Below are positions 22,384 to 33,693 of a DNA stretch of 33,693 nucleotides, piece after piece; positions within the stretch are counted from its first letter, which is position 1; the number at the start of each line of letters is the position of its first letter. The notes below the pieces were generated by a model. The model searched no databases, was not told where the DNA came from, and was given only the letters and a program-made list of their open reading frames with translations. Where the stretch lies: positions 1-33,693 of the IMG/VR virus record IMGVR_UViG_3300044695_003258; one strand, written 5' to 3'. The DNA comes from a virus. The translations under genes and the position numbers were made by a program.

Positions 22384-22401
22384 AGCCAAGCGTGCTTGGC
22401 T
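22384..22401 (+). promoter_or_regulatory. Operator site 2, perfect 18-bp palindrome
   Basis: AGCCAAGCGTGCTTGGCT is a perfect 8-2-8 palindrome. It differs at only two positions from site 1. Both are followed by GGCTAAG and then, a few bases on, a start codon (22417 here). TAAGAT at 22405-22410 could be a -10 box, though no good -35 is visible. Confidence 0.6.
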
Positions 22402-22416
22402 GGCTAAGATGGGCCC

Positions 22417-22623
22417 ATGACAACGAAGCTCTCCATTGAACGCAACAACATCACCTCAACCATTACTCTCCGTGACAGTTGGGCATACGCCGGACTGGTA
22501 GTGGCCGAAGAGACCCTCAACAACACCACACTTTACAGCGAAATTATGAGCCCCGAGCGCGCTCAAAATTTGGCTTACGATTTGTTGGGAAGCGGATGGC
22601 GAGTGATTGAGCACAGTCTCTAG
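22417..22623 (+). CDS. Small early protein of unknown function
   Basis: A 68-residue protein, MTTKLSIERNNITSTITLRD and following, with a beta-rich first half and a helix (SPERAQNLAYDLLGSGWRVI). It is alone behind operator site 2 and probably early. The last base of its TAG stop is the first base of the hammerhead ribozyme's stem II. Confidence 0.6.
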   Translation: MTTKLSIERNNITSTITLRDSWAYAGLVVAEETLNNTTLYSEIMSPERAQNLAYDLLGSGWRVIEHSL

Positions 22624-22674
22624 GCCGAAACGCCCTCCGGGGCGTCCACCCGTAAGGCGGGTGCTGACGAGGCC
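22623..22674 (+). ncRNA. Type II hammerhead ribozyme
   Basis: The full catalytic core is present in the order of a stem II-open (type II) hammerhead. It runs: stem II strand GGCC (22623-22626), GAAA (22627-22630), stem III CGCCC/GGGCG closed by TCCG (22631-22644), then TC completing the GTC cleavage triplet (22644-22646). Stem I follows as CACCCG/CGGGTG with loop TAAGG (22647-22663), then CTGACGA (22664-22670) and the second stem II strand GGCC (22671-22674). The A15.1-U16.1 and C15.2-G16.2 pairs also fit. Self-cleavage would fall after C22646. It lies in the gap between two small early genes and would separate their messages. Established: type II hammerheads occur in phages and bacteria. Confidence 0.9.
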
Positions 22675-22704
22675 GTCAGAGTGAGACATAAACCAAAAAA
22701 CCAA

Positions 22705-22911
22705 ATGAGCACCTCACACTACTCCCGCCCATTCCAAGGGCCAACACCGCCCAACCGCCCCAAACGGACAGCCTGGTATCTTGCCGGATTTGGCGGGCTA
22801 CTGCTGGTAGACATCCTCGCACTCGGCGGCTCCCGCGACCTTGTGGAGTCACTGACGCTTGTTGGACTGACCATAATCAACCTCTGGGCACTTGACCGGT
22901 ACAGCAGATGA
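22705..22911 (+). CDS. Small two-span membrane protein
   Basis: A 68-residue protein starting at the ATG at 22705, beyond the ribozyme. A GTG at 22681 lies just after it and is less likely. A Pro-rich cytoplasmic-type start (SRPFQGPTPPNRPKR) is followed by two hydrophobic segments (WYLAGFGGLLLVDILALGG and SLTLVGLTIINLWAL). Its message would begin with the 3' product of ribozyme cleavage, with a 5'-hydroxyl end. Function unknown. Confidence 0.6.
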   Translation: MSTSHYSRPFQGPTPPNRPKRTAWYLAGFGGLLLVDILALGGSRDLVESLTLVGLTIINLWALDRYSR

Positions 22912-33087: not shown

Positions 33088-33190
33088 TTCCCAGTAGCTC
33101 AGTTGGTAGAGCAGCGCTCCCTCAAGGCTAAGGGCCAAAATGCTGGGACAAAGCGCAGGCCGTACAGTTCGAGTCTGTACCTGGGAGCCA
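33088..33190 (+). tRNA. tRNA-like element with enlarged anticodon loop
   Basis: It has a canonical D-arm (GCTC/GAGC around AGTTGGTA, 33097-33112) and T-arm with TTCGAGT loop (33168-33174) on stem GTACAG/CTGTAC. An acceptor TCCCAG/CTGGGA is followed by encoded GCCA (33187-33190), and the variable loop is AGGCC. The GCGCT/AGCGC anticodon stem (33114-33118 with 33152-33156), however, holds 33 bases instead of 7, with an inner CCCT/AGGG pairing. No removal of 26 contiguous bases restores a loop with U33. Acceptor and T stems are 6+6 bp instead of 7+5. It may be an interrupted tRNA, a degenerate tRNA or a tRNA mimic. The amino acid is not assignable. Confidence 0.5.
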
Positions 33191-33582: not shown

Positions 33583-33628
33583 ACCCCGGACGCCTCTCGA
33601 CGATGCGCACCAACCGGGGTCGCTTTTT
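33583..33628 (+). terminator. Intrinsic terminator at the right end
   Basis: ACCCCGG (33583-33589) pairs with CCGGGGT (33614-33620) and is followed by CGCTTTTT. The loop is long (24 bases), so it is less compact than the terminators of the head genes. It would end transcription before the terminase operon in the circular map. Confidence 0.65.
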
Positions 33629-33693
33629 GTCTGCACCCCCCCCCCACAAGGAGTCTCCTAGGGGTCGTTTTCGTCGGGGTGATGTTGAGGACG
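33629..33693. other. Candidate packaging-end region with C-run
   Basis: The stretch has a run of ten C (33636-33645), a perfect AGGAG-T-CTCCT palindrome (33649-33659) and AGGGGTCG, then the terminal GTGATGTTGAGGACG shared with the left end. Placement directly before the small terminase gene matches cos or pac regions of lambda-like phages. No cos sequence is recognised. Confidence 0.35.
33679..33693. repeat. Right copy of 15-bp terminal direct repeat
   Basis: Identical to bases 1-15 (GTGATGTTGAGGACG). It supports a complete, circularly closed or terminally redundant genome. Nothing else distinguishes it from an assembly overlap. Confidence 0.9.

Follow-up and report, generated by a model that had tools for sequence, protein, structure and literature searches.

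Type II hammerhead ribozymes, together with clusters of them surrounding changing prophage genes, were described by Perreault et al. in 2011, who proposed that they cut phage RNA into gene-sized messages (PMC3088659). Phage hammerheads cleave in vitro and, in the case of one Agrobacterium cluster, also in E. coli; in the published type II consensus, a pseudoknot joins loop I to the 3' tail (PMC3088659). The reason for the association between phages and ribozymes has been called unknown (PMC10085705). The ribozyme analyzed here lies in an IMG/VR virus record (IMGVR_UViG_3300044695_003258), whose 33,693 nucleotides, i.e., the whole stretch of DNA under study, are referred to as the window. It is a new member of an already known kind, sharing with the published type II family (RF02276) the same core, the three stems, the open stem II, and the intergenic phage position. 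However, whereas the published consensus has a pseudoknot between loop I and the tail, the tail of the window ribozyme matches the catalytic core instead. Like the prophage clusters flanking ardA and other genes in Agrobacterium, Azorhizobium, and Clostridium (PMC3088659), it is located between changing genes; unlike those clusters, in which several copies flank the genes of one genome, the window genome harbors a single copy, and both the overlap with the stop codon and the constancy of the linker formed by ribozyme, tail, and leader were measured in the present analysis. The HHphage ribozyme of the haloviruses HF1 and HF2 (PMC3088659) is also placed a few bases 5' of a phage gene start, but it has a variant core, belongs to an archaeal virus, precedes a helicase gene, and no tail pairing has been described for it. 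The coordinates of the features of the locus are reported in Table 1.

Table 1. Features of the ribozyme locus, with positions in the window and the evidence on which each of them is based.
Feature	Position	Strand	Evidence
Upstream 68-aa gene, no assigned function	22417..22623	+	ORF list; relatives at 67-88% identity
Type II hammerhead ribozyme	22623..22674 (Rfam match to 22681)	+	RF02276; covariation of stems I/III
Predicted cleavage site between C22646 (H17) and C22647	22646..22647	+	Position relative to the conserved core
Alternative hairpin CUGACG-AGGC-CGUCAG	22664..22679	+	Minimum-energy fold; N7-tail covariation in two independent sets
Tail and A-rich leader, extending to the next start codon	22675..22704	+	Sequence; form conserved in relatives with different genes
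Downstream 68-aa gene, small membrane protein (hydrophobic segments, sequence inspection)	22705..22911	+	ORF list; 14 relatives

An earlier note on this DNA had described a complete type II hammerhead, and re-reading the sequence led to the same coordinates, core elements, three stems, and stem II-open order. The covariance-model search that the note had suggested was performed on both strands with all 4227 Rfam families; RF02276 matched with 39.0 bits (gathering score 37, E = 1e-4), and no second hammerhead was detected in the 33.7-kb window up to E = 10. Stem II consists of GGCC (22623-22626) paired with GGCC (22671-22674), and its first base, G22623, is also the last base of the upstream TAG (22621-22623), as had been claimed. 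Stem II is followed by GAA (22627-22629; the GAAA element being 22627-22630) and by stem III (ACGCCC/GGGCGU, 22630-22635 with 22640-22645), which is opened by A22630 (15.1) and carries the loop UCCG. Next come H17, i.e., C22646 at the end of GUC and, in agreement with the hammerhead core, not a G; stem I (CACCCG/CGGGUG, inside 22647-22663, loop UAAGG); and the core CUGACGA (22664-22670). Stem II is thus open, and stems I and III are closed around the core. A pseudoknot of at least 4 bp between loop I and the tail was not found by inspection, the loop UAAGG having no complement in GUCAGAGUGAGAC; relatives carrying the tail GUCCUUCGUC could form the pairing AAGG/CCUU. Since this pseudoknot is optional, being common and not universal in the published set, the assignment to type II stands. 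The window element is in all likelihood a hammerhead able to cleave.

The possibility that the motif arose by chance was rejected on the basis of the Rfam match, of a reversed-sequence control, and of the covariation of the stems. The fetched loci (1.66 Mb) contain 132 matches, among those listed, to a stem-based descriptor; after reversal of these sequences, no match was obtained. The pattern used on the viral collection fixed only stem II (GGCC) and the core, and the stretches retrieved with it, at least 120, represent the first set. In the 142 unique matches listed, stems I and III, neither of which was required by the pattern, are formed with many pair types: the pairs of stem I are canonical in 87-97% of cases vs. 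46-78% in shuffles, and the unfixed pairs 3-6 of stem III in 88-99% vs. 45-50%. A reading of the locus as a terminator was also rejected, given that the hairpins are not followed by a U run and that the terminator scan lists nothing at this site.

The window starts and ends with a 15-base perfect direct repeat (1-15 and 33679-33693), so that the 33.7-kb record probably represents a complete genome, assembled as a closed circle, despite its classification as linear in IMG/VR. No close DNA relatives were found in the phage collection; the nearest cultured phage according to the terminase is Verrucomicrobia phage P8625, whose identity of 24% is only a hint. A genome scan with an 18-base probe, intended to identify the host, retrieved 59 matches, none of which is a hammerhead according to the descriptor. 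The ORFs of the window were called by simple rules rather than by a gene finder. On the 5' side, the ribozyme is preceded by genes for a metallophosphoesterase, an endolysin, a DUF3310 protein, and a small protein; on the 3' side, it is followed by those for the small membrane protein, a protein with a weak HNH endonuclease match, a helicase-methylase (a label derived from the sequence and from weak DNA matches), and an exonuclease and, further on, for Holliday junction resolvase, RecT-like, and DnaB-like proteins, all of them on the + strand. The ribozyme is thus located near the start of the replication gene block, probably an early one, and the description of its neighbors as early genes in the earlier note is plausible. 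Neither of the two 68-aa genes belongs to a PHROGs or Pfam family, and the tail and leader contain no Shine-Dalgarno sequence. Immediately before the start of the upstream gene, at 22384-22401, there is a perfect inverted repeat, AGCCAAGC-GT-GCTTGGCT, possibly an operon leader; a similar hairpin precedes the first gene of locus L022, without a ribozyme after it.

The comparison of related phages, also suggested in the earlier note, revealed the ribozyme at the same site in all five IMG/VR relatives of the upstream gene, in four of them above the gathering score. The position of the element appears to follow a rule. In the window, the ribozyme lies in sense orientation between codirectional genes, overlaps the stop codon by 1 nt, and is separated by 30 nt from the next start codon, the median distance in the relatives being 31 nt 3' of stem II. 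In two classes of phage type II hammerheads with different stem II, the upstream stop ends from -2 to +3 nt from stem II in 102 of 131 cases in the first set (among the matches listed) and in 99 of 127 in the other class, i.e., in 201/258 overall.

Long arrays of these ribozymes were also observed. In Streptomyces phage Janus (NC_054660, 41934-49150, - strand), there are 11 type II hammerheads, 8 of which score above the gathering score, and in Streptomyces phage Puginator (PP978857, 42033-50135, - strand) there are 10, all of them above it; in both phages they are in sense orientation, separate successive genes within a single region, and are apparently unannotated. The comparison of their positions with the annotation of Janus revealed that, from gp60 to gp78, each gap longer than 45 nt holds a hammerhead. 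These cultured phages, with their roughly ten copies each, make the question of operon cutting directly testable. Metagenomic phage loci can also harbor many type II hammerheads within a few kb, as in L095 (9), L304 (10), L286 (9), and L326 (7).

The genes on the two sides of the ribozyme change much more than the ribozyme itself. Clustering by blastp assigned the genes adjacent to it in 38 loci of this clade to 15 upstream and 16 downstream families. In the 453 pairs of loci in which both neighbors are different, the identity is 84% in the ribozyme and 70% in the next 25 nt, whereas the flanks (54-57%) are at the level of shuffled sequences. The same membrane-protein gene has different upstream neighbors from one locus to another, and a single group of upstream genes is followed by several different downstream genes. 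In L014, two ribozymes flank one gene; in L022, the membrane-protein gene is located directly after the hairpin leader and the ribozyme is absent.

The reading of the locus as a type II hammerhead proposed in the earlier note was right, but a conserved tail able to sequester the core had been overlooked. The tail (22674-22679) is complementary to the core (22664-22669), and the resulting hairpin takes up core positions C3-G8 and breaks stem II, so that it cannot coexist with the active fold. The calculated energies are -31.1 kcal/mol for the locked fold vs. -29.2 kcal/mol for the active one, at the level of secondary structure and thus excluding any tertiary contacts in the active form. When the 3' end of the RNA is varied in the calculation, stem II prevails at 22678 and the locked hairpin at 22679, i.e., as soon as five tail bases have been made. 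In the first set, among the matches listed, the sequence NUCAG occurs within 8 nt of stem II in 63 of 151 ribozymes, roughly 3 being expected by chance according to our own estimate. The UCAG tail is absent in the other 88, and since many phage type II hammerheads are devoid of it, it is not required for their general function. In six loci (L002, L006, L017, L018, L020, and L148), the tail has another form, GNNCUUCGUC, and 7 bp are formed between it and GACGAGG; the sequence is different, but the predicted effect is the same as that of the NUCAG tail.

Position N7 of the hammerhead core may be any base. Nonetheless, in the first set (matches listed), none of the 63 ribozymes with the NUCAG tail has a mismatch between this position and the tail base, the pair being C-G in 50 and U-A in 13. 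In the independent stem II class, the combinations of N7 and tail base are 72 U-A, 11 C-G, 9 U-G wobbles, and 1 A-U, with 7 unpaired (93/100 pairable); this class was selected by requiring TCAG, and its counts hence concern the pairing of N7 rather than the enrichment of the tail. With the two classes pooled, including the matches listed for the first set, N7 and the tail are pairable in 153/161 ribozymes. As an example, the near-identical ribozymes of L135 or L188 and L196 differ by exactly the double change of N7 and tail. Base composition was rejected as the source of this link, because the pairing holds in every GC stratum, including the one above 58% GC (25/25), where both pair types occur. 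A second control position, located in the tail, also shows association, and the relatedness of the sequences inflates the p-values of covariation; since the latter therefore exaggerate the strength of the link, a better argument is that mismatches are nearly absent in all strata and in both stem II classes. The loop I-tail pseudoknot was rejected as the reason for UCAG, to which the common UNANG loops offer no complement; a 4-bp complementarity between loop I and tail, counted by allowing G-U pairs and starting from the third base of stem II, is equally frequent in ribozymes with (55/142) and without (51/137) the UCAG tail. Neither the core-tail hairpin nor the abutment on the stop codon was found described in the searchable literature, outside of which most subscription papers lie, and the hairpin is provisionally regarded as new as far as this search extends. 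Taken together, it is probable that a large class of phage hammerheads bears a selected, built-in lock, whose tail covaries with N7 and sequesters the core, and which might work as a ratchet once the cut has been made or, alternatively, as a gate controlling the cut, phage operons being divided by irreversible or self-limiting cuts.

The position of the cleavage site relative to the core is established hammerhead chemistry. An active ribozyme would cut the message after 22646, 23 nt beyond the stop of the upstream gene, as the earlier note had correctly placed it, and cutting the message is very likely the job of the ribozyme. Since stems III and I are both closed, each message would retain a hairpin where it was cut, the upstream one a GC-rich hairpin at its 3' end and the downstream one another hairpin at its 5'-hydroxyl end, and the two halves would be kept together only by the 4 bp of stem II. 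The freed core CUGACG would then probably pair with its own tail CGUCAG and dismantle stem II, releasing the products, blocking religation, and making the cut irreversible. The hairpin formed in this way would be the second one before the A-rich leader of the downstream gene; the fold predicted for the 3' product indeed has exactly two hairpins, with an open leader after them. Ribozyme, tail, and leader would thus represent a fixed linker, providing the next gene with the same clean 5' leader whatever upstream gene is swapped in.

RiboJ-type synthetic insulators consist of a hammerhead and a hairpin in the 5' leader and were engineered from an unrelated hammerhead. The likeness to these insulators, which were used in PMC7536230, resides in the fact that a cut and the following hairpin fix the 5' leader of the downstream gene; in the phage, however, the second hairpin is made from the core of the ribozyme itself, presumably after cutting. 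The abutment on the stop codon, the constancy of the linker, and the hairpin made from the core suggest that the roles of the element might be to make the cut irreversible, to protect the ends, and to standardize the leader, and nature would thereby offer a design for an RNA cutter working in one direction only. The present analysis documents the anatomy of the ribozyme, its conservation amid shuffled genes, its abutment on stop codons, and the core-tail covariation; cleavage in the cell, the order of the events, stabilization, and insulation are what we infer. The idea, advanced in the earlier note and, for phage hammerheads in general, already by Perreault et al., that self-cleavage separates or stabilizes transcripts is consistent with the position of the element in hundreds of relatives. 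The whole mechanism, i.e., cutting followed by refolding, is considered on balance the probable one.

The same tail might instead serve as an off-switch or timer, the message being cut only before the tail is transcribed or when polymerase pausing, a protein, a small molecule, or a ribosome holds the tail off the core, while uncut messages would be locked as longer RNAs. The flip of the calculated fold within a single nucleotide suggests that the hairpin could pre-empt cleavage, and the locked fold, which is selected, excludes the catalytic core; on the other hand, a fast hammerhead would cut before the hairpin forms, or compete with it, and nothing resembling a trigger or a ligand-binding site is seen. 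Without a trigger, it is harder to explain why a conserved ribozyme should stand next to a hairpin that only inhibits it; for this reason, refolding after the cut was judged likelier than the off-switch, which appears unlikely. A somewhat lower probability is assigned to plain constitutive processing as proposed in 2011, with the pairing of the tail representing merely one more 5' hairpin without any role in cutting or in the fate of the products. Many phage hammerheads do occupy the same position without a UCAG tail, and cleavage has been shown for the prophage clusters (PMC3088659); this explanation, however, does not account for an N7-tail covariation with very few mismatches that holds in two stem II classes and in all GC strata, and the conservation of a tail that sequesters the core implies that constitutive cutting should not simply be taken for granted.

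It might also be argued that the element matters mainly as DNA, i.e., as a short identical junction block for recombination or cassette exchange, with the ribozyme being carried along. The many gene families joined by near-identical linkers would fit this idea, as would the RecT-like protein encoded by the phage and the changes in identity located within the ribozyme or the leader (L012 vs. L024, L002 vs. L006). Yet the covariation of the stems and of the core-tail hairpin extends to sequences whose divergence precludes recombination, pointing to selection on RNA pairing, and the orientation of the element and its distance from the stop and start codons are fixed, which makes this explanation very improbable. 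The least credible possibility is that of a non-cleaving relic or decoy supplying only stable hairpins: the locked fold is slightly favored in the calculation, but the core is invariant while stems and loops vary. Cutting followed by refolding is hence the reading preferred here.

Two other RNA features were observed close to the 3' end of the window. The sequence at 33584-33620 (+) resembles the abiF RNA (RF03085, 35.9 bits vs. a gathering score of 37) and is conserved in related genomes (G009:15825-15861, G015:524-566, and G017:657-688), whereas an abiF gene was seen next to it neither in the window nor in G009. AbiF RNA regulates the AbiF toxin system (PMC12373285), and the phage element could accordingly be a decoy antitoxin, or else only a terminator look-alike followed by a T run. 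A tRNA gene is located at 33089-33186 (+; RF00005, 32.2 bits vs. 29); it is missed by ARAGORN because its anticodon loop is about 33 nt long, as if it contained an intron-like insert of about 26 nt.
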